In this document: piece by piece, positions 2,244 through 33,925 of the stretch
How positions within the stretch are numbered: the stretch's first letter is position 1
Layout: every line of letters starts with the position of its first letter
Assembly: GCA_022844265.1 (NCBI GenBank)
Contig: JALHMA010000016.1
Span: forward strand, 1-34,509
Source of the DNA: Saprospiraceae bacterium
GTDB taxonomy: Bacteria > Bacteroidota > Bacteroidia > Chitinophagales > Saprospiraceae
DNA length: 34,509 nt
Reading direction: 5' to 3'
Position numbers and translations under genes: made by a program
The notes under the pieces: generated by a model
What the model was told of the DNA's origin: nothing
Seen by the model: the letters and a program-made list of their open reading frames with translations, nothing else
The model's database searches: none

Positions 2244-2472
2244 CTTATTAGTTATGAATGATACGTTCTTGTTTGTTTTGAAGATGCCTCGTGAGGCAAT
2301 TGCGCAAAGAAACAGAACAAAATGAAGTATTGCACTGTATTGCTGTTTTTTTCGCGGAACAAAACTACTTACACCAACCGCGGTACCAAATTATCGTTCG
2401 ATAAAGATGTGTAAATGAGGTCTATTTAGAAGGGGTAAAAATTCGGGAGGGAGATGGGACGGATTTTGGGAT

Positions 2473-2562
2473 AAAAAAGGAACACAGATTGGGGGGATTG
2501 GACACGGATTTCCCCGAGGCAGAGTATTGGAGAAAATCCGTGTCCAATTCGTGTTCCTTTTT
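2473..2562. repeat. Imperfect inverted repeat (hairpin A), core AAAAAGGAACAC..ATTGGACACGGATTT / AAATCCGTGTCCAAT..GTGTTCCTTTTT
   Basis: Left arm aaaaaggaacac[agattgggggg]attggacacggattt; reverse complement of right arm aaaaaggaacacgaattggacacggatttt. Confidence 0.8.
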
Positions 2563-2583
2563 GAGCAAACACCCACTCAAAAA

Positions 2584-2624
2584 TAAAAAATCCCGAATTT
2601 TTCCTCTGAGGAAAAATTCGGGAT
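2584..2624 (-). terminator. Rho-independent terminator for the ferredoxin gene
   Basis: Perfect stem atcccgaatttttcctc / gaggaaaaattcgggat (2590-2606 / 2608-2624), followed on the minus strand by TTTTTTATTTTT. Confidence 0.8.
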
Positions 2625-2657
2625 CAAATTCTTTACAAATGCTTGATTATCAACACG

Positions 2658-2685
2658 GATAACCAATAACGAATAACCGATAACA
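2658..2685. repeat. 7-nt tandem tract gataacc-aataacg-aataacc-gataaca abutting the ferredoxin stop codon
   Basis: Four consecutive degenerate heptamers read directly; ferredoxin stop is at 2688-2690. Confidence 0.7.
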
Positions 2686-2687
2686 AC

Positions 2688-3035
2688 TCAAAGGTGCAGC
2701 CGCGCTTTCCTTTCCAGCAAAAACTCCTTCGATTCTACACGATCGGGGTCGGGCACACAACAATCCACCGGGCAAACGGCTGCGCATTGTGGTTCTTCGT
2801 GAAATCCGACGCATTCCGTACACTTATCCGGTACGATGTAGTAAAAATCGTTGGATACGGGACTGTTTTTTTTACTGACGGGTACAACGGTGCCGTCTTC
2901 TAACTCGTATTCCCCTTTTACTGTATTTCCATCTGAAATAGCCCACTCCACGCCGCCTTCATAAATGGCATTGTTGGGGCATTCCGGTTCGCAGGCTCCA
3001 CAGTTAATACACTCGTCGGTGATGATAATGGCCAT
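2688..3035 (-). CDS. 2[4Fe-4S] ferredoxin, Alvin type
   Basis: [28 protein letters not shown]...[22 protein letters not shown]; two cluster motifs with the CxxC-x8-C insertion. Listed ORF extends upstream to 3167, but that extension is hairpin sequence, so the internal ATG is preferred. Confidence 0.88.
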
Positions 3036-3062
3036 TTTTTTTCTTTTACAGGCTGTTTTAAG

Positions 3063-3183
3063 GGGTTGATAAAGGTTTATGAGGTTGATAAGGTTGATAT
3101 ACATCCGCTCTAAAAAGCAAAATCGTCTCATTCCAGAGCGGATGTATATCAACCTTATCAACCTCATAAACCTTTATCAACCC
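3063..3183. repeat. Perfect 49-bp inverted repeat (hairpin C), GGTTGATAA-type units
   Basis: 3063-3111 gggttgataaaggtttatgaggttgataaggttgatatacatccgctct is the exact reverse complement of 3135-3183; 23-nt loop. Confidence 0.97.
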
Positions 3184-3240
3184 GTTAAACAACGCATTTT
3201 TCCGAAAGTTGGCGCAAATGTACGGAGAGATAACGAAAAA

Positions 3241-3384
3241 GGTTGTTGAGGGTTGATAAAGGTTGATGAAGGTTTATAAAGGTTGATATACACCCACTCG
3301 AAAAATGGGAAAATGGATCATATTTCGAGTGGGTGTATATCAACCTTTATAAACCTTCATCAACCTTATCAACCCTCAACAACC
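3241..3384. repeat. 62/63-nt inverted repeat (hairpin D), five 10-nt GGTTGATAAA-type units per arm
   Basis: 3241-3303 versus 3323-3384: identical as reverse complements except one 1-nt indel; left arm parses as ggttgttgag ggttgataaa ggttgatgaa ggtttataaa ggttgatata. Confidence 0.97.
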
Positions 3385-3394
3385 TCATCAACCC

Positions 3395-5731
3395 CTACTG
3401 CACCGCCCGTACAAATGCATCTATGTTTGCACTTTCCAATTGGCGTTCCAGCGCATCGGCTTCCCGGCGGGTGCCAAAACGGCCCACGCAGACGGAGAAA
3501 AACGAAGAATTGGGGAAACGCACAATTTCTGCCGCTTCATAACCGGCAGCCTGTAGGGTGGCGACCTGGTTGTATGCGCGGTTTTCCATCAGGAATGACC
3601 CGGCAACAACATAATAGGTGTCACGGTCTGCATTGGTCACGATGACGCCTCCATTACCAGTGTTCTGCTTTTTGCCACCCGGAGCAGTTACTTCCGGAGA
3701 GATTGGCGATGGGCTGTTCATCTGGCCATTGACATAAATCATGGAAGCGCCTTGCATACCCGTCAGGATACGGATTTCGGTACGCCTGTTGCGCGCATGT
3801 TCCTGATCCGTGCAGGAAATACCGTCCTGGCAAATATTGCGCGGTTCACTTTCGCCATATCCGACCGGTTTGAGGCGGGTGCGATCGACGCCACGGCTCA
3901 CCAGGTACTCCACCACGCCATTGGCGCGGCGCTGGCTGAGTTCCTGGTTGTACATATCATTGCCGCGGCAGTCGGTATGGCTGGCTAATTCTACCGTAAT
4001 GGAAGGTTGCTGGCGCATCAGCGAAACCACCAGGTCTAGGTCTTTACGCCCGTCGGGCCGCAGGGTAGCGTCGTTGAAGTTGTAATAAATGTTGGGCAGG
4101 TCGACGATCGTGCCCGGCAAAAGGGGCGCCACCGAGAGGTTCTGCATGATGGGCTGTCCTGAAGTAGCCCCATGCGTATCCACTTCCGTCGATCCGATAA
4201 TGCGTCCGCCCTGGTACAAATCCACTTTATACTTTTTATTGGTGTCCAGATAATAGTCAACCAGACCGTTTGCGTCTGCTACTACGGTATCCTGTTTACC
4301 CGATTCGTCTGTCAGCACAAACATGGCGCCGGCAAGCGGCGCATTGGTGACATAGTTGAACGCCGAGGCATTCCACTGCACTTTGCCAGGCCCGGCCATC
4401 GAAGTGCGCTCCAATTGTATGGCGAGTTCATTGCCCGGTTTGGAAACGGTCAGACGGATTTGTTTGGTCTGATAACCTTGTTTGGAAATGATAATCACAT
4501 AATTACCGGGTTTCACCTCGGTCGAAAAACGCCCTTTCCCGTCGGTTACACCATTGATTCCTTTATCGGGAGCCATGGATTTGATTACATCCTGACCGTT
4601 GACATTCTGGATGGTAATCAGATTGCCGGATTCATCCCGGCCGATCACGTTGTTGGCATCATAGTTCAATACCTGCGCATCGGCATCGCTGATGGCGGCG
4701 CCCGACGACTTGTCAGTCACCACTACCCTGATATCGAGGTTGCGGTCGGGTACGCGCTGGTTTTGCAGCAGGTAATCGTCGAGGTTGCCGTTTTCTGTAT
4801 GAAAACTAAAGATTTCATCGCCGCCTTTACCGCCGCTGCCATTGGTGGAATAATAGCCGTTGATTTTATTCAGGTCTACAATCAGTCCTAAATCATCGCC
4901 ACTGGTATTAAACGGGCTGCCTAAGTTGACCGGTTTCGTCCACTGATTATTTTCCATGATGGCATAATACAAATCGAAACCACCCTGGCCGCCTTCCATT
5001 GCATCGGAGGCGAAATAAAGCGTATTATCGGCATGTATGAAAGGAAATGCTTCCCGACCGGTTGTGTTGACACCCGGCCCAAGGTTTACCGGCTCGCTCC
5101 AGGATTCTCCCACACGATAGGAAACATATATATCTGTGCTGCCCAGACTGCCCGGGCGGTTGGAAGCAAAGAACAATTTATCGCCATCGATGCTGATTGC
5201 AGGGTGGAAATCGTCAAATTCATTGTTGTTGAAGGGTAGCGCTTCCGGTTCGCTCCACACGCCATTCACTTTTTTAGAACTGTAAATGCGCGTTTTTTGC
5301 GTTTTGTCTTTCGCAAACTTCTCTTTCCCTCCGATCATGGCGTTTCGGGAAAAAAATACCGTTTCCGTCGTACGGTCAAAACAAACAGGCCCTTCATGTT
5401 CCACTAAGGAAGACAATTCTTTAGCAAAAAGTTCGGGCGCCGAAAGTGCTCCGGATGTGTCGCGGCGGGCGCGGAGAATACTCAAAGCAGGCAGTTTCAG
5501 GTCATCATCTTTTTTCTTTTTCAGTCCGACGCCACTGGCATTGGTAGAGATAAAAACGATCCCGTCTTCATAAAAGGTGGGGCTGAACTCCAGTCCGCCA
5601 GTATTCACGGCATCCTCATTTTTCACTTGTACTGTGATCAATGGCGGTGCGGAGGGTGTGGTCTGGGCTTGCACCAGACCTGCGAAAAAGCAGCAGGCGA
5701 GTAAAGAGATAAAAAGTCGAAGGGCTTTCAT
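3395..5731 (-). CDS. OmpA-family protein with PD40/WD40-like repeats, carboxypeptidase-regulatory-like region, OmpA domain and C-terminal SPOR domain (PorE-like)
   Basis: FDDFHPAISIDGDKLFFASNRPGSLGSTDIYVS (PD40); GRFSTEVKPGNYVIIISKQGYQTKQIRL (CarboxypepD_reg-like); YYNFNDATLRPDGRKDLDLVVSLMRQQPSITVELASHTDCRGN..NRRTEIRIL (OmpA); YYVVAGSFLMENRAYNQVATLQAAGYEAAEIV..VCVGRFGTRREADALERQLE (SPOR). Confidence 0.88.
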   Translation of the reverse strand: MKALRLFISLLACCFFAGLVQAQTTPSAPPLITVQVKNEDAVNTGGLEFSPTFYEDGIVFISTNASGVGLKKKKDDDLKLPALSILRARRDTSGALSAPELFAKELSSLVEHEGPVCFDRTTETVFFSRNAMIGGKEKFAKDKTQKTRIYSSKKVNGVWSEPEALPFNNNEFDDFHPAISIDGDKLFFASNRPGSLGSTDIYVSYRVGESWSEPVNLGPGVNTTGREAFPFIHADNTLYFASDAMEGGQGGFDLYYAIMENNQWTKPVNLGSPFNTSGDDLGLIVDLNKINGYYSTNGSGGKGGDEIFSFHTENGNLDDYLLQNQRVPDRNLDIRVVVTDKSSGAAISDADAQVLNYDANNVIGRDESGNLITIQNVNGQDVIKSMAPDKGINGVTDGKGRFSTEVKPGNYVIIISKQGYQTKQIRLTVSKPGNELAIQLERTSMAGPGKVQWNASAFNYVTNAPLAGAMFVLTDESGKQDTVVADANGLVDYYLDTNKKYKVDLYQGGRIIGSTEVDTHGATSGQPIMQNLSVAPLLPGTIVDLPNIYYNFNDATLRPDGRKDLDLVVSLMRQQPSITVELASHTDCRGNDMYNQELSQRRANGVVEYLVSRGVDRTRLKPVGYGESEPRNICQDGISCTDQEHARNRRTEIRILTGMQGASMIYVNGQMNSPSPISPEVTAPGGKKQNTGNGGVIVTNADRDTYYVVAGSFLMENRAYNQVATLQAAGYEAAEIVRFPNSSFFSVCVGRFGTRREADALERQLESANIDAFVRAVQ

Positions 5732-21963: not shown

Positions 21964-24015
21964 TCACCAATTATACGAGCATTCCACCCGCCATCCCCGC
22001 CCCGGCATGGGCCGGTAAAGGAGTGCCTGGTACGGCGTATTCCAGGCGTTTTCTACCCGGACGCCAAGCATTAATCCCGTCAGTTTTTTGGAAAGCCCGG
22101 CAAATCCGTAGCGCAGGATCAGGTTTCCCGTTTGAAAACCGCGCAACATATCCAGGTTATCAGTGGTGACAAACCGGGGTCCGGTAAACTGATGCAGGTA
22201 AGCGCCTGTGAAACTGCCGCGTCGGGCATGTATGCCTACACCTGCCGTGTGGTTGGGTGTGTATGCCAGTTGCTTGTTTAACACGCCCTGCTCTGCTGTA
22301 TAAACCGATACATTCGTGGCTTTTACATATTGGTAACGCCCGGAGAAGCGCCCCTTCCAGCGCCCCATGCGCCAGTGCCAGGCGCCGCTACCTGCCACTC
22401 CCCTACTCCATACTTTTTTCAGGTTAAGCGGCCTGAATATACCGCCTGAACCCGGTTGCCAGTCAATCCAGTCATCCATAAGTATTTGAAAAACAGAGAC
22501 TTCACCGGAAAAAAATTCATTTTGATATTTCCAGCCCAGGTCACTGCTATATCCGCGTTCAGCCTTCAGGCCTGGCCGGCCATAGAAATTCCAGAAACGG
22601 TCATTAAAGGTGGGCAGGTTGAAATTCCGGGAAAGATGGAAGTGCAGTTGCCCGGCGCCGAGGCGGAATTGCCCACCGGCAGACCAGGTAAAAGGAACGC
22701 CCTGCTCCTGCGCCCATTCCTGCCGAAGCAGCAAAGAGAGGCGGCCGTTTTTAAACCGACGTTCTCCTGTGGCATACGCCGCCAATCGGGCCTGTCCGTA
22801 CCAGCGCGTACTGTCTGCGTAACCATCCACATTTGCCCATTGCTGCTGTGCGCTCAGCCCGGTTTTGAAAAAAAAATGCTGCCGGAATGTTGTGGAATAA
22901 TCGCTGCTGAGCAGCGCGGTTCTGGCACGGCTGGAATCCGTTTTACCATAGAGGTCATAAAAAATGCTTTCATCGAGCCATGCCGCGCGGGTTTGCCAGA
23001 GGCTATGCGCATTCGATTGTCTGTCCCAGGTAACAACCGCCCTGTTAGCCCGGTCGCGCTGCCAGGTTTCTGTGGGCAATTGTGTCATTGTCGGCGGAAT
23101 TTCCCGGAACGCACGCTGGCTCCATAGCGCCGATTTCAGCGTATTTTTTTTATTGATAACCCATTGATTGTGTTGCTGAATATCCCATTTTTCCCCAAAG
23201 TTATTGGCTTGCCGAACAAGGGGTTTGCCAATTTGTGTGGTATTGCGATAGGGGAAATCGTTGTTGGAACGCTGCCAGGATGCCCGGATTTCTGCCGCAA
23301 ATTTTTCGCCGGACAAACCGGCTGAAACCATGTTTTCCACGCGTCCCCAACTACCGGCCGCTGTAGTTGCCGTTCCAAAAAAGCCGGCTTCCTGCCGGAG
23401 CGGTTGCGACTCCAGATGAATGTTGCCACCCATGGAACCGCTGCTTTGCGCAGCGCTTTGTCCGCCATACCGCACTTCCACCCGGTCGTCAGGCCAAATC
23501 GGGATCAGGGCAAGGTCGACCACGCCGTGCATGGTACTTTGGAGGGGAAGCCCGTTCCAGAGCACGGGACTGCGTTTAGGTCCGGCGCCTCGGATGGACG
23601 CCGTGGCTAGCGTACCGGGTGCATTGGGCCGGATATCCACCGCATTATCCCAAAACAAACGCTCCGACAAGGATAAGACGCCCTGAACAGGCAATGTGTC
23701 AGCCCGCCAGATGGTGTATCCATTGCGCTCTGCCTGTTGCCGACGGACCAGCACTTCGGGTAACACAAGGGAGGTGTCCGTTTGTGCCTGCAGTCCGCAA
23801 AAACCCTGAAACATACCGGTCAGGAGCAAAAAAAGCCCGGCAGGCGATAAGCCCCCGGGCGGTATTTTCCGTGCGAGGGTCTTATTGAATTTTTTTGAGT
23901 ATTTGAAGATTTGAATATTCGAGTATCTGACTGATAACGAATCATTTATACTCAAATATTCGAATACTCGAATACTCAAAAATTTAGATAACACAGTATT
24001 TATTATATCTGACAA
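21964..24015 (-). CDS. TonB-dependent receptor (outer membrane); 5' end uncertain
   Basis: Plug-like LPEVLVRRQQAERNGYTIWRADTLPVQGVLSLSERLFWDNAVDIRPNAPGTLATASIRGAGPKRSPVLWNGLPLQSTMHGVVDLALIPIWPDDRVEVRYGGQSA; long barrel region. ORF coordinates begin at a TTG, and no ATG precedes the hydrophobic signal-like segment. Confidence 0.8.
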   Translation of the reverse strand: MSDIINTVLSKFLSIRVFEYLSINDSLSVRYSNIQIFKYSKKFNKTLARKIPPGGLSPAGLFLLLTGMFQGFCGLQAQTDTSLVLPEVLVRRQQAERNGYTIWRADTLPVQGVLSLSERLFWDNAVDIRPNAPGTLATASIRGAGPKRSPVLWNGLPLQSTMHGVVDLALIPIWPDDRVEVRYGGQSAAQSSGSMGGNIHLESQPLRQEAGFFGTATTAAGSWGRVENMVSAGLSGEKFAAEIRASWQRSNNDFPYRNTTQIGKPLVRQANNFGEKWDIQQHNQWVINKKNTLKSALWSQRAFREIPPTMTQLPTETWQRDRANRAVVTWDRQSNAHSLWQTRAAWLDESIFYDLYGKTDSSRARTALLSSDYSTTFRQHFFFKTGLSAQQQWANVDGYADSTRWYGQARLAAYATGERRFKNGRLSLLLRQEWAQEQGVPFTWSAGGQFRLGAGQLHFHLSRNFNLPTFNDRFWNFYGRPGLKAERGYSSDLGWKYQNEFFSGEVSVFQILMDDWIDWQPGSGGIFRPLNLKKVWSRGVAGSGAWHWRMGRWKGRFSGRYQYVKATNVSVYTAEQGVLNKQLAYTPNHTAGVGIHARRGSFTGAYLHQFTGPRFVTTDNLDMLRGFQTGNLILRYGFAGLSKKLTGLMLGVRVENAWNTPYQALLYRPMPGRGWRVECSYNW
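23888..23985. repeat. Imperfect inverted repeat (hairpin E), 8-nt GAATACTC/ATTCGAGT-type units
   Basis: aatttttttgagtatttgaagatttgaatattcgagtat versus reverse complement of right arm aaatttttgagtattcgagtattcgaatatttgagtat; right arm parses as actcaaat attcgaat actcgaat actcaaaa. Confidence 0.88.
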
Positions 24016-24551: not shown

Positions 24552-24564
24552 AACTTTTTAATGT

Positions 24565-24667
24565 GTGTTTGGTGTTTCGTTTTTCGTGTTTGGGGTGCTT
24601 CGCTCAACCATCACAGCATGTCTTGGGCAATGTCCCCCCAAACACCAAACACGAAACACCAAACACG
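24565..24667. repeat. Inverted repeat (hairpin F), 7-nt AAACACC/AAACACG units
   Basis: 24565-24595 versus reverse complement of 24636-24666: 29/31 identical; right arm aaacacc aaacacg aaacacc aaacacg (24640-24667). Confidence 0.93.
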
Positions 24668-24671
24668 AAAA

Positions 24672-25607
24672 TCAAAGTACATTCATAGCATCCAGCGCGT
24701 CAGAAACTTCTTTGACCGCTGCCGCTGATTTATGGAGCAGATCGAGTTCGTCCTTTTTCAGGCGAAGTTTGATAATTTCCTGGATGCCTTTGCGTCCAAG
24801 TTTGACCGGTGTGCCTACGAATACGTCCTTCAGTTTGTACTGACCGTTCAGGCGTACGCAGCAGGGGAAAACGCGTTTTTCGTCTTTAAAAATTGAAATA
24901 GCCATTTGGGCAGCGGCTGCGCCGGGTGCATACCAGGCGGAAGTGCCCATGAGGTTGACCAATTCGCCGCCGCCGAATTTGGTGCGCTCGATAATGGCCT
25001 CTAATTTATCTTTTTTAATCAGTTCCGTGACCGGGATACCACTTACTGTTGTGTAGCGGGGCAATGGCACCATAGTATCGCCATGTCCGCCCATCAGCAT
25101 CGCCTGAATATCCTTCGGCGAAACGTCGAGGGCTTCTGCGAGAAATGCGCGGTAACGGGCCGTATCCAGCACGCCGGCCATACCAATCACCCGTTTGTCG
25201 GAAAGACCGGAGGCTTTCCAGCAGGCGTAGGTCATCACGTCGAGCGGATTGGAAACCACGATAATGATCGGGTTTTTGGTGTATTTCAGGATATTCTGTG
25301 TGACAGAAACCACGATTTTGGCATTTGTGGAAATCAGGTCATCGCGGCTCATACCTGGCTTGCGCGGGATACCGGCGGTAATTACAACGATATCCGAATT
25401 GGCGGTAAGGGCATAATCGTCGCCGCCCGTCATCCGGGTGGAATAGCCGTCGATGGGCGCCTGTTGCCAGGTATCGAGGGCTTTGCCTTTGGCCAGATTG
25501 CCCTGTATGTCAATCAATACGACCTCATTAAAAAGGTCTTCGTGTGCCAGTACATTCGCACAGGTGGCGCCTACATTGCCGGCGCCTACGACGGTAATTT
25601 TGCTCAT
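24672..25607 (-). CDS. mdh: Malate dehydrogenase
   Basis: 311 aa; MSKITVVGAGNVGATCANVLA (Rossmann), DIVVITAGIPRKPGMSRDDL, VSNPLDVMTY, GGHGDTMVPLPR active-site motif. Confidence 0.95.
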   Translation of the reverse strand: MSKITVVGAGNVGATCANVLAHEDLFNEVVLIDIQGNLAKGKALDTWQQAPIDGYSTRMTGGDDYALTANSDIVVITAGIPRKPGMSRDDLISTNAKIVVSVTQNILKYTKNPIIIVVSNPLDVMTYACWKASGLSDKRVIGMAGVLDTARYRAFLAEALDVSPKDIQAMLMGGHGDTMVPLPRYTTVSGIPVTELIKKDKLEAIIERTKFGGGELVNLMGTSAWYAPGAAAAQMAISIFKDEKRVFPCCVRLNGQYKLKDVFVGTPVKLGRKGIQEIIKLRLKKDELDLLHKSAAAVKEVSDALDAMNVL

Positions 25608-26027: not shown

Positions 26028-26942
26028 AATCTCCGCCAGCATCCCTTCCTTCATCGCATACACGGAGGTGTATATGTCGCGGATGTTTGCTTTGTCCAGT
26101 ACGTGCTGGATCAGCACCATGGCGACCACGACCATTTCCACCCGTTCGTCGGGGAGTTGGGGCATGGCCCGGCGTTCGGCAAGGGTACTGCTGGTGAGCA
26201 TATCCCGGAGCGGTTCAAAATCTTCCGGCGACAGGTGGCCGTACAATTCCGGTTTGGTTGCCGGGTCGAGCAGGAAAATATCTATAACGTCGAACGTACC
26301 GGAAGCGCCGATCAGGGAAGAACTGGGATATTGTTCCAAGGCCTGCCAAAGTGCTCCCAGCGTTTTTTCAAGAAACTGATGGAGTTGCCCGATTTCTTCC
26401 CCTGCAATGGGATCGCTGTGGTGAAATGCGCGAAACAACACCGAAACTCCGATCGGAAAACTTTGTTGCCAGTATACCCGTTCGCGGTCGGCAATGATAA
26501 ATTCCACGCTGCCGCCGCCAATATCCATAATCAGTACCCGGTGGTCGGGGAAAGGAACCGCCTGCCGCACCCCTTTGTAAATCAGTGCCGCTTCCCGGTC
26601 GCCGGTGATGGATTCGGGCCGGATACGCGCCATTTCCCAGGCTTCTTTCAAAAAATCGGGGGCATTTTCCGCCGTTCGCAGGGCCGCCGTGCCGAATGCG
26701 CGGATATTTTCCTGTAGCACACCCGCTTCGTCCAATTGTGCCCGAAACTGCCGCAAGGCATTCAACCCACGGGCATAAGGCGCTGCACCGATGCGCTGGA
26801 TACCTTCTTCGGCGAGCCTGACGTATATTTTGTTTTTCAGCAGAACATGCCAGTGGCCATCGGGCTTGTGTTCCACAATGAGGAGGTGAAAGGTGTTGGT
26901 GCCTAAATCAAGTACTGCACTAAGCATGGGAGTATTTTTCAT
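26013..26942 (-). CDS. Ppx/GppA family exopolyphosphatase / guanosine pentaphosphatase
   Basis: Start reassigned to MKNTPMLSAVLDLGTNTFHLLIVEH; RVLIMDIGGGSVEFIIAD phosphate-binding motif; LIGASGTFD. Upstream 22 codons of the listed ORF are hairpin G. Confidence 0.9.
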   Translation of the reverse strand: MKNTPMLSAVLDLGTNTFHLLIVEHKPDGHWHVLLKNKIYVRLAEEGIQRIGAAPYARGLNALRQFRAQLDEAGVLQENIRAFGTAALRTAENAPDFLKEAWEMARIRPESITGDREAALIYKGVRQAVPFPDHRVLIMDIGGGSVEFIIADRERVYWQQSFPIGVSVLFRAFHHSDPIAGEEIGQLHQFLEKTLGALWQALEQYPSSSLIGASGTFDVIDIFLLDPATKPELYGHLSPEDFEPLRDMLTSSTLAERRAMPQLPDERVEMVVVAMVLIQHVLDKANIRDIYTSVYAMKEGMLAEIRSEK

Positions 26943-26947
26943 AATCA

Positions 26948-27027
26948 GGGATGAGGGATGAGGAATGAGGAATGACCGAGCGTGATGTCGGACATCACGT
27001 TCGGTCATTCCTCATCCCTCATTCCTC
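26948..27027. repeat. Near-perfect palindrome (hairpin G), 7-nt GGGATGA/GGAATGA units
   Basis: 26953-26989 versus reverse complement of 26991-27027: 34/37 identical, 1-nt centre; gggatga gggatga ggaatga ggaatga at 26948-26975. Confidence 0.95.
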
Positions 27028-29988
27028 TTTCATGGCTCTGTAAACTACGCTCTGCAATCGAGGTCGAAAATCCCCGTTCCCAAGTTTATTATTCTCCATC
27101 GTCGGGTAAGTCCGGTTGGATAAAAAGATAAAAATCAGGTTTTTATCCGGATCGGCCCAGACGCCAATACCTGTAAATCCAAGATGGCCGAAGGTGTTGT
27201 TGCCCGCCAGATCGCTCATATTTTTTGTTTCTTTCGGATCCAGTTCCTTCATATCGAAACCGATGCCGCGCCGGGTGCTGCCCGGGAAACGCGTGGTGAA
27301 CCGGCGAACCGTTTCGGGTTTCAGGTACTGTATGCCGCCGTAAGAACCGTCGTTCAGCAGCATCTGGAATATTTTGGCCAGGTCGTTGGCATTGGAAAAC
27401 AAACCGGCGTGCCCGCTGACGCCGCCCAGCATGGCCGCGCCCATGTCGTGAACATAACCCTGTACATGCTGGTGCCGAAAATAGGCATCCTCTTCTGTTG
27501 GGGGGCAACGCAGGGTCAATCCTTTTTGCCAGGGGTTGTAGGTCGTCGTGCTCAGGCCAAGCGGACGGTAAAACTGCTGATCCGCGAATACATTCACCGG
27601 CCGGCCGCTGATTTCAGCGATGGCGCGGGCGCCGAGGTACAGGCCCAGATCAGAATATTTGTATTTTTTATCTTCCCGCAGCGGCGAGTCGAATATTTGC
27701 TGCCAGATGGTGTCTACCCAGGTATTTTCCATGTATAAGCCCTGGGCAACCGGCGTATCAAACTTTCTTTCATGCTTTTCGCGGTAAATCATTGGAGACA
27801 GGTTTTTATCAGCGGTGAGTGTTTGCTGATAAAACGGTATCCAGGCCTGCAATCCGGCATGGTGCGCCAGGATTTCCCGCACCAGAAGGTCTTTTTTGTT
27901 GCTCTTTTTTAATTCCGGAATAAAATTGGACATCGGGACATCCAGGCTAATCAGGCCGTCTTCGGTCAGTTTCATCAGGGAAATGGTACTTGCCGCCACT
28001 TTTGTGACCGAAGCCAGGTCGTAAATACTTTCCGTGGTGACCGGCGTCGGCTGGATGTAGGTAAAAGAGCCGTAGGCTTTATGCCAGACGATGGTGTTGT
28101 CTTTGGCAACCAGAATCTGGCAGCCCGGCGCCGCGCCCGTTGCAATCATTTCCTGTACAATACCGTCCATCAGCGCGAGGGTGTCGCTGCGCATCCCCAC
28201 CGATTCCGGTAGCCCGTAGCCGAGGCGTTTATAGGGATAAATTTTTCGGACGCCCTGCCCGAATTTGGCGGCGGGCGAAGCCGTTACGGGCAAAATGCCC
28301 GTCAGGTCGCTGGCGCCAAACAGCGCCATGGCAGCCGTTTCCTGCACCATCGGGTCTTCCGTATAGGCATCCAGCACTATCGGGAAAGATTCGAAATACC
28401 CCATGCTGTACGGATTGCCAAACATGGTTATCGCCACGGTTGTTAATCCGTTCAGGCGGTGCAGCAAGGTCATCTGGCTGGGTGAAAGACCAAAATTATC
28501 ACTGCCTTTGGAACGTGTGCCGTGTATACTCACCAAAACCACATTGTACTGTTTCAAGGAATCCAGCAGCAACTTCTGCGCCAGCGTATCCACTTCTTTT
28601 CCGGCGTTAAAATGTTTCATGGGAGCATAATAACCGCAATAAGTCTGAAAAACCGTGCGGTTGGTATCGCCCAGGGCGAGGGTGGCAAAACGGTATTTTT
28701 CCAGTTCGCGGAAACCGACAATGCCGGGTTCGTCGCGCACCAGCGTGAGTCCGGCAGCGATCAGTTTGCGTTTGAGCACAAGGGCCTGGGGCGTATTGAG
28801 GTCGCGGCGCAGGTTGTTGAGTTCCACCCTTTGCGGCGTGGTTATTCCGAGGCGATATTTGGAGCGAAGCACCCTTTTACAACTATCGTACAGCTGTTTT
28901 TTGTCGATGGTACCATTATCAACAGCGGTCTGCAGCGCTGTCATGGCGGCGCCCAGGTTCTCCGGCAGCAGGTCGACGTCGTTGCCGGCCCGAAACACCT
29001 CCACATCCGCTTCGCCGGGGCCGAAGTGTTTCGTGACCCCTTTCATTTCCATCGCGTCTGTGAATATAAGTCCCTGAAAATCAAACTTTTTCCGCAGCAA
29101 ATCCGTGATAACCGGCCTGCTCAGCGAGGTGGGGCGGTTGACGCGCGGATCAAGCGCCGGGACGTTCAGGTGGGCCACCATAACGGATCCGATACCATTT
29201 TTCGCCAGCATTTTAAACGGATACAATTCGAGGCTGTCGAGTCTTTCGATGCTGTGGTTCAGCAATGGCAAATCGAAATGGGAATCCACATCCGTGTCGC
29301 CATGTCCCGGGAAATGTTTGGCGCAGGCCAACACACCGCCATCCTGTAGTCCTGCCATGTACTGGAAGGATTTGGCCGTCACATTGTAGCGGTCTTCCCC
29401 AAACGAACGTTCATTGATGACCGGATTAGCGGGGTTGTTGTTGATGTCTGCATCGGGCGCAAAATTGACATGCACCCCCAGGCGGCGGCATTGCCGGGCC
29501 ACTTCGACGCCCATTTCGTAAATCAGCCGGTTGTCTTCTATGGCGCCCAGCATAATTTGTTTGGGAAAGGAAATGGTGGTTTCCCGCAGTCGCATGCCAA
29601 GGCCCCATTCCAGGTCCATGGAGACCATGAGCGGCATTTGCGGACTGGCTGCCTGGTAGCGGTTGGTGAGCGCCGCCTGTTTTTCGGGCGTTCCTTTTCC
29701 CGTCGGGTTAAAATAACAAATGCCGCCCGGTTTGTACTGGCGGATCAGGTCTTCCACTTGCTGTTCGTACGCGGAATCCATATCCAGATGTCCCCGGATC
29801 GCGAACAATTGACCGAAACGCTCGGCATCGCTCATAGCATTAAAAAGCGAGTCGACCCAGAATGCCTCTTTTAAGTTGGCAGACCGGGAAAGGTTGGCAA
29901 AGGGCTTGTTATCATGGAAGCCTTCGAAGAAAATCGTCCCGCATACCAGTAACGGAATACAAAATTTCAGGTTGAAAAAACGTCGCAT
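27019..29988 (-). CDS. Fusion of GH3 beta-N-acetylglucosaminidase (NagZ-like) and serine beta-lactamase/esterase-like domain
   Basis: N-terminal half: CAKHFPGHGDTDVDSHFDLP (NagZ signature) and IFTDAMEMKGV; C-terminal half: LASVTKVAASTISLMKL (SxxK) and YSDLGLYLGARAI (YxN-like region). Confidence 0.9.
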   Translation of the reverse strand: MRRFFNLKFCIPLLVCGTIFFEGFHDNKPFANLSRSANLKEAFWVDSLFNAMSDAERFGQLFAIRGHLDMDSAYEQQVEDLIRQYKPGGICYFNPTGKGTPEKQAALTNRYQAASPQMPLMVSMDLEWGLGMRLRETTISFPKQIMLGAIEDNRLIYEMGVEVARQCRRLGVHVNFAPDADINNNPANPVINERSFGEDRYNVTAKSFQYMAGLQDGGVLACAKHFPGHGDTDVDSHFDLPLLNHSIERLDSLELYPFKMLAKNGIGSVMVAHLNVPALDPRVNRPTSLSRPVITDLLRKKFDFQGLIFTDAMEMKGVTKHFGPGEADVEVFRAGNDVDLLPENLGAAMTALQTAVDNGTIDKKQLYDSCKRVLRSKYRLGITTPQRVELNNLRRDLNTPQALVLKRKLIAAGLTLVRDEPGIVGFRELEKYRFATLALGDTNRTVFQTYCGYYAPMKHFNAGKEVDTLAQKLLLDSLKQYNVVLVSIHGTRSKGSDNFGLSPSQMTLLHRLNGLTTVAITMFGNPYSMGYFESFPIVLDAYTEDPMVQETAAMALFGASDLTGILPVTASPAAKFGQGVRKIYPYKRLGYGLPESVGMRSDTLALMDGIVQEMIATGAAPGCQILVAKDNTIVWHKAYGSFTYIQPTPVTTESIYDLASVTKVAASTISLMKLTEDGLISLDVPMSNFIPELKKSNKKDLLVREILAHHAGLQAWIPFYQQTLTADKNLSPMIYREKHERKFDTPVAQGLYMENTWVDTIWQQIFDSPLREDKKYKYSDLGLYLGARAIAEISGRPVNVFADQQFYRPLGLSTTTYNPWQKGLTLRCPPTEEDAYFRHQHVQGYVHDMGAAMLGGVSGHAGLFSNANDLAKIFQMLLNDGSYGGIQYLKPETVRRFTTRFPGSTRRGIGFDMKELDPKETKNMSDLAGNNTFGHLGFTGIGVWADPDKNLIFIFLSNRTYPTMENNKLGNGDFRPRLQSVVYRAMKEE

Positions 29989-32290: not shown

Positions 32291-32440
32291 ATTTTTTTCC
32301 CTCGTAGCGTAGTTGGAACACGGATGGGAGGGATGAGACACGGATTTTTTCCCTCGTAGAGTGATGGGACCCGGATGAAACGGATTTTGGCGGATTAAAA
32401 CGGATTTTTCCCTCGTAGATTAGTTGGAACACGAATTTTT
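32291..32440. repeat. Three direct repeats containing ATTTTT(T)CCCTCGTAG(N)..TGG(A/G)AC(A/C)CG
   Basis: ggatttttttccctcgtagcgtagttggaacacgg; cggattttttccctcgtagagtgatgggacccgg; cggatttttccctcgtagattagttggaacacga. Confidence 0.85.
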
Positions 32441-32543
32441 TAAATTGATGATTGTCGATTGATAATTGACAATTTATAATGTAACGCGCAAATCAGCAAT
32501 TGTCAATTATCAATCGACAATCATCAATTAAAAAAATCCGTGT
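32429..32543. repeat. Inverted repeat (hairpin H), 7-nt ATTGATN units
   Basis: 32429-32473 versus reverse complement of 32499-32543: 43/45 identical; attgatg attgtcg attgata attgaca at 32444-32471. Confidence 0.96.
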
Positions 32544-33798: not shown

Positions 33799-33925
33799 TT
33801 TTTTTACCACATAGTTTTTTACCACATAGTTCACAGTAGAATTTCCACATAGATCACATAGGAGTAGTTTCGTTTATGTTATGTGATCTATGTGAAAATT
33901 CTACTGTGAACTATGTGGTAAAAAA
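33799..33925. repeat. Inverted repeat (hairpin I) of CACATAG-type words between convergent hppD and the kinase gene; possible bidirectional terminator
   Basis: 33815-33860 versus reverse complement of 33880-33925: 45/46 identical; outer ttttttaccacatag duplicated at 33799-33829. Confidence 0.96.

Follow-up and report, generated by a model that had tools for sequence, protein, structure and literature searches.

Hairpins C and D, two neighbouring palindromes in the 34,509 nucleotides of Saprospiraceae DNA analysed here (contig JALHMA010000016.1; hereafter the window), are members of a repeat family that we term F1. We consider it probable that F1, including C and D, is a non-autonomous, dispersed mobile palindrome of REP/MITE-like character, whose word-built arms regain their symmetry by intrastrand template switching. 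C and D differ mainly as distinct members of a mobile, dispersed family do, and not as a local pair that diverged in place.

Hairpins C and D and the F1 family

F1 elements share one plan, in which outer arms built of short words enclose a conserved centre, made up of a loop of about 26 nt with a core of 19 nt on either side, the two cores being in opposite orientations. The outer arms consist of degenerate GGTTKATRA words, whose order varies among copies and is mirrored inside each copy. Elements are 98-180 nt long, with stems of roughly 40-75 bp. The two copies in the window and their neighbours are arranged as follows (features without a strand are unstranded).

2688..3035, minus strand: ferredoxin gene (4Fe-4S, Fer4), assigned by Pfam
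3057..3189: hairpin C, an F1 copy that separates the promoter-like box of the ferredoxin gene from its start codon
3057..3091: left outer arm of C, a GGTTKATRA word array of 35 nt with one mismatch against the right arm
3092..3110, plus strand: left core of C, GGTTGATATACATCCGCTC, from the core search
3111..3135: loop of C, the 25 nt between the cores, a family loop in reverse orientation
3136..3154, minus strand: right core of C, from the core search
3155..3189: right outer arm of C, from arm alignment
3215..3222, minus strand: promoter-like -7 box of the ferredoxin gene, TACATTTG, from slot comparison (TACCTTTG or similar in most relatives)
3240..3385: hairpin D, an F1 copy that follows immediately on the OmpA/SPOR stop codon
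3240..3280: left outer arm of D, a word array (41 nt against 40 nt on the right, one indel, no mismatch)
3281..3299, plus strand: left core of D, GGTTGATATACACCCACTC, from the core search
3300..3326: loop of D
3327..3345, minus strand: right core of D, from the core search
3346..3385: right outer arm of D, from arm alignment
3395..5731, minus strand: OmpA/SPOR/PD40 gene, assigned by Pfam and relatives, its stop codon abutting hairpin D

The sequence-only reading had described C as a perfect 49-bp hairpin with a 23-nt loop and D as a long hairpin with one indel, the two sharing the core GGTTGATATACAYCCRCTC, and our analysis agrees on each point. The arms of C extend over 3057-3111 and 3135-3189 (55 nt, one mismatch), with the perfect 49 bp running from 3063 inward, and the arm lengths of D are counted outward from its 19-nt core. 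That every difference between C and D is mirrored in the opposite arm holds with two exceptions, namely the mismatch in C and the indel in D. Folded as RNA and compared with 200 dinucleotide shuffles, C reaches -90.2 or -93.0 kcal/mol depending on the strand (z about -20 and -19) and D reaches -110.8 kcal/mol (z -22).

The same reading had proposed a genome search for the core, and this revealed a dispersed family. With at most one mismatch the core matched 57 times in forward and 47 times in reverse orientation in the 6.05-Mb draft genome (561 contigs) from which the window derives; a slightly wider pattern gave 71 forward and 71 reverse matches, and the reversed control of the core pattern gave none in this genome. 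Matches almost always came in inverted pairs, with the two cores about 45 nt from each other. We extracted 55 complete copies for analysis, and a looser search of the examined parts of the genome yielded at least 63, with possible double counting of a few where the examined stretches overlap. The core was present in five of 61 genomes (this one and four further species), all from one genus, which comprises 42 Saprospiraceae-labelled MAGs. In 85,462 species genomes, paired cores were, among the matches listed, nearly all confined to four separately deposited MAGs titled Bacteroidota, Bacteroidetes or Saprospiraceae, and stray single cores elsewhere among these matches occurred, by our own estimate, at about chance level. 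A literature search found no description of these repeats, and the text matches listed for the repeat words concerned unrelated subjects.

The loops of C and D had been taken as unrelated, which proved wrong. Most loops among the 55 members derive from one consensus, GAAAATGAAGCGATTTTACTTTTTTC, relative to which 25 members are in forward and 30 in reverse orientation. The loops of C and D lie 8 and 7 edits from this consensus, compared with a mean of 15 and a minimum of 9 for shuffled loops. Moreover, the D loop is identical to that of another copy (L056, G000:C263), and the C loop is nearest to those of L022 and L038. Since both loops match other copies best, C and D are separate family members and not each other's nearest relatives.

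With a draft genome of 561 contigs, the palindromes might be suspected to be assembly or chimera artefacts, as the sequence-only reading had itself considered. We regard the probability of this as negligible, since F1 recurs in independently deposited assemblies, including one of about 50 contigs (G034), with orthologous flanks; for the family, an artefact is ruled out.

Two variants of the plan were also observed. In a subfamily (L208, L212, L224 and other copies in genomes G034 and G027) an asymmetric core, GGTTGATAAATGGCGGCTC ggggtaag..ttcatc GAGTGGCTGAATATCAACC, is recurrent and the loop ends, GGGGTAAG...TTCATC, are conserved, which looks as though recognition acted on a single strand or end. 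In a G015 copy (L135, 4789-5083) one arm has grown to about 20 GGTTGATRA words and the other has about four, an instance of slippage confined to one arm.

Insertion sites and comparison with known repeats

A gene end lies at the edge of the element in 50 of the 55 copies, typically within a few nucleotides, and 28 of these copies are located between convergent genes; the gene ends are ORF-based and the genomes are draft metagenome assemblies. Empty or near-empty orthologous sites were found for three copies, with 3 nt (L054 versus L101), 12 nt (L041 versus L166) and 54 nt (L023 versus L140) at the corresponding position, and one slot (L045) contains three unrelated hairpin families across three species. 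These data show that F1 is dispersed, restricted to five sister species and inserted right behind stop codons, with orthologous slots empty or otherwise filled.

The slot occupied by C and D illustrates this. The adjacency of the OmpA/SPOR and ferredoxin genes is kept in most genus members examined, and the window is colinear with G034 across 30 kb, so that slot comparisons are orthologous; sister genomes are 74-88% identical at this locus, and alignments within word arrays are partly ambiguous. In G015 the slot holds a hairpin of AAGTGCGAAGTC words unrelated to F1, and in G034 and G027 an unrelated hairpin with ATGAGTT/GTGAGTA words and a TTTTTGTGCTGTAC core. In G030 there is a core-less GGTTGAT remnant and C is absent, and more distant species have simple hairpins or nothing. 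The box TACATTTG is presumably a -7 box, as judged from the Bacteroidota promoter consensus. On the other side of the ferredoxin gene, a hairpin of CACGGATTGG words (2474-2562) is followed by a plain bidirectional terminator-like hairpin at 2589-2625; in the G030 ortholog of the former, a second hairpin of about 120 nt is inserted in the loop.

REP and REPIN sequences are dispersed intergenic palindromes, mostly located between convergent or unidirectional genes and often providing the stop codon of a flanking gene (PMC3733652). F1 shares the placement between convergent or unidirectional genes. However, REPs measure 20-40 bp, with stems of 5-13 bp and a GTAG/CGTC tag, whereas F1 is longer and carries mirrored, variable word arrays, and the tag is found neither in its consensus core nor in its words. 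Furthermore, the RAYT genes that we examined are flanked by a hairpin other than F1. RAYT-type genes occur in 34 of the 42 genus genomes, that is in all five F1 species and in many genomes without F1, and at the four loci examined (L279-L282; G000 contributes two, G034 and G015 one each) F1 is absent and a hairpin of the AGCCCTGAAAGGGC type lies near the gene. We therefore rejected the RAYT/Y1 transposase as the agent of F1. The AGCCCTGAAAGGGC-type hairpin is probably the cognate repeat of these four RAYT genes.

Like MITEs, F1 elements are short, non-coding, multi-copy inverted repeats that are missing from orthologous sites. Unlike in MITEs, the length and the word order of their terminal repeats are variable. 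A target-site duplication was not found at the empty sites, where the relatives are too diverged to fix the exact junction, and no parent transposon came to light in the sequences examined. Long-loop variants were considered as carriers of an autonomous element and discarded, the inserts that we read being too short for a gene. The TAACTGA heptamers, short degenerate arrays in Beggiatoaceae, cyanobacteria and Bacteroidetes (PMC4679880), resemble F1 in that words of 7-10 nt are repeated between genes and are prone to slippage, but they are direct repeats without a hairpin centre and, in the best-studied genome, lie mostly upstream of start codons.

Mirrored variation between the arms

Permutation over the 55 copies indicates that mirroring exceeds chance: within copies there are 40 discordant core pairs versus 97.4 +/- 5.8 after shuffling, and the outer arms differ by an edit distance of 139 versus 301.5 +/- 12.2. 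At core position 10, for example, 30 copies are A/A, 22 are T/T and three are discordant. The arm arrays are uncorrelated with loop kinship (5.86 versus 5.80 edits), and the arms thus change faster than the centre.

In orthologous copies the picture is different. Among 106 core columns from about 15 orthologous sets, which share some members so that the counts are not independent, 70 changed in a single arm, 15 were old shared asymmetries, nine were concerted and 12 were other cases. After insertion, the arms mostly drift independently, and from the excess of single-arm over concerted columns it follows that arm correction is occasional and not continuous. The sequence-only reading had suggested arm-to-arm correction, and had regarded independent divergence of the arms in related genomes as evidence to the contrary. 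Such divergence is found in most orthologous comparisons, yet arm copying is seen in one trio; the proposal stands in that mirrored variation is beyond chance and copying did occur, but not as a continuous process.

This trio consists of orthologous copies in G015 (L148), G027 (L273) and G034 (L159), with well-conserved flanks and a right arm altered in G034 alone. The right arm is retained in G015 as CTTATCAACAGTATTATTCATC..CATCATTTAAG, and in G027 with one base different in the word. In G034 the right arm, CTTCATCAACACATTCAAG, holds AACACATT, the complement of AATGTGTT, which is unique to the left flank. The altered arm is rejoined at a CATT microhomology, 18 nt of the ancestral right flank are gone, a third word now matches the left arm, and both arms carry GGG in place of the GG of the other two copies. 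With 88% identity, versus 80.7% to G015, G034 and G027 are sister genomes, which makes the change derived in G034. An arm has accordingly been replaced by the reverse complement of the opposite arm, including bases unique to the locus, with known polarity. The change is a template-switch footprint, and copying via the hairpin explains it in one or two events. This polarised footprint comes from one trio and from a sister-species copy, not from C or D themselves. Two further orthologous pairs suggest arm copying without polarity, one with a mirrored A/G word change (L226/L213) and one with a mirrored 1-nt indel (L155/L225). That arm copying is a general process is what we infer, the two pairs being suggestive.

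Template-switch mutations have been reported to create and maintain RNA hairpins, mainly in rRNA stems and microRNAs (PMC8794818). Together with quasipalindrome correction, they are among the known systems nearest to F1. In contrast to those cases, template switching would here act on a mobile repeat family. The process predicts mirrored multi-base changes, extension of the stem into the flank and loop inversion in one event, of which the G034 copy shows the mirrored changes and the extended stem. In-place loop inversion had to be set aside as a marker, orthologous loops being co-oriented or too diverged, although both orientations occur in the family; these may simply reflect the orientation of insertion.

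Mirrored variants could also be produced by ectopic recombination (gene conversion) among dispersed copies and not by intrastrand copying. Centres and loops do seem to differ by species: those of G000 are symmetric and share one loop consensus, those of G034 and G027 are of the asymmetric GGGGTAAG..TTCATC type, and in one slot (L030) each species has its local type. However, the rewritten G034 arm carries unique flanking bases from the other arm of the same copy (AATGTGTT to AACACATT), and no other copy can supply these; we consider this explanation improbable for the arms. Ectopic exchange between copies could also homogenise the centres.

Symmetry could instead be made at birth, if an HUH/RAYT-type transposase or fold-back priming inserted a single-stranded hairpin and its second arm were filled in on the template of the first, with only decay thereafter. 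Many copies are perfectly symmetric, copies with near-consensus loops have arms as unlike as those of any pair, arms drift independently in orthologous pairs, and RAYT-type genes are present in all five F1 species, all of which would fit. On the other hand, the G034 copy was re-symmetrised in place, with the ancestral state preserved in two relatives, the examined RAYT loci have the AGCCCTGAAAGGGC hairpin and not F1, and no parent-offspring match of arms was seen. We therefore give this explanation a minor though real share of the probability. Correction may be rare, and insertion itself may be what gives young copies their perfect arms.

The sequence-only reading had named selection on RNA structure as the other possible cause. 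A functional RNA (terminator, 3'-end stabiliser or sRNA), with arms kept paired by compensatory mutation, would agree with the very stable folds, the location right behind stop codons and the presence of some hairpin in the C/D slot across several species. The data speak against it. Where a copy has one clear sense strand, mismatches of the G-U kind in the transcript are no commoner than A-C (23 versus 22), which argues against pairing kept for RNA, with the reservation that lone mismatches in so stable a hairpin may escape selection. In the G034 and G027 copies about 4 to 5 of the 19 bp in the core remain mismatched, and slots are empty in sister species. A U tract (at least five T in 8 nt) follows the stem at just 7 of 110 element sides, and terminator-like sites in the scan of the window occurred only at 2589-2625, with none at C or D; intrinsic termination by F1 was rejected on these grounds. 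An Rfam search of 2300-4000 gave no family at the gathering score, the best weak matches being microRNA models that score any long hairpin. Selection for RNA structure is thus unsupported, and a functional RNA is in our view a decidedly unlikely explanation.

Returning to template switching, we envisage the following course. The outermost word of the centre, GGTTGATRA, recurs outward on both sides in a hypervariable mirrored array, which slippage and point mutation would alter on one arm. Now and then, a replication or repair strand would fold back at the hairpin and copy one arm onto the other by an intrastrand template switch, which would restore the palindrome while carrying the new sequence. 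The very stable F1 hairpins at 3' ends may block RNA decay or read-through; selection for such effects is not required.

A wider class of word hairpins

F1 is one of many such families. With N stretches removed, about 255 kb of this genome contained 56 long hairpins, or one per 4.5 kb, most of them built alike, with a word of 7-10 nt repeated in the outer arms around a core and a loop, and grouping by eye gave a dozen or so word families. The CACATAG family is present in six scattered genus members, and the GACCGAGCGT family is multi-copy in no genomes but this one and its sister G030; one isolated match, with a single mismatch, lay outside the genus. GGTTGATRA arrays occur in 13 of the 42 genus genomes. 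In G008 and G021, more distant species which do not have the F1 core, they surround another centre, CGTAGAGTACACCGCGATT, in either orientation (L290, L291, L292), and some G008 arrays are one-sided and without a centre. Sequences similar to this centre, GTAGAGTAC, are also seen in CACATAG-family loops of the window's genome. The window itself contains five further hairpins.

26932-27048: GGAATGA family
33815-33925: CACATAG family
32429-32543: ATTGATAATTGAC family
23892-23982: GAGTATTTGAAG family
24559-24679: GTGTTTGG family

Three of these slots are comparable in G034, where those of 23892-23982 and 26932-27048 are without such a hairpin and that of 24559-24679 holds an unrelated hairpin. We tentatively suggest, as a possibility that we would not rate highly, that these families form a broad, undescribed class of Saprospiraceae mobile palindromes, at least a dozen families per genome, in which words are iterated outward and mirrored by fold-back, palindromes are continually re-made and centres are swapped between arrays.

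F1 represents a natural high-copy replicated system: several sister species hold about 60 copies per genome, and many families exist in parallel. In this system the origin and continued covariation of long perfect palindromes, long debated, are directly testable. Covariation in stems is usually taken as proof of a functional RNA; here it probably results largely from mobility and arm copying at the DNA level, which calls for caution when RNAs are sought by covariation in genomes of this kind. Moreover, F1 points to a mobilising activity in an environmental lineage, and arm rewriting explains how long near-perfect palindromes change and yet remain palindromes.
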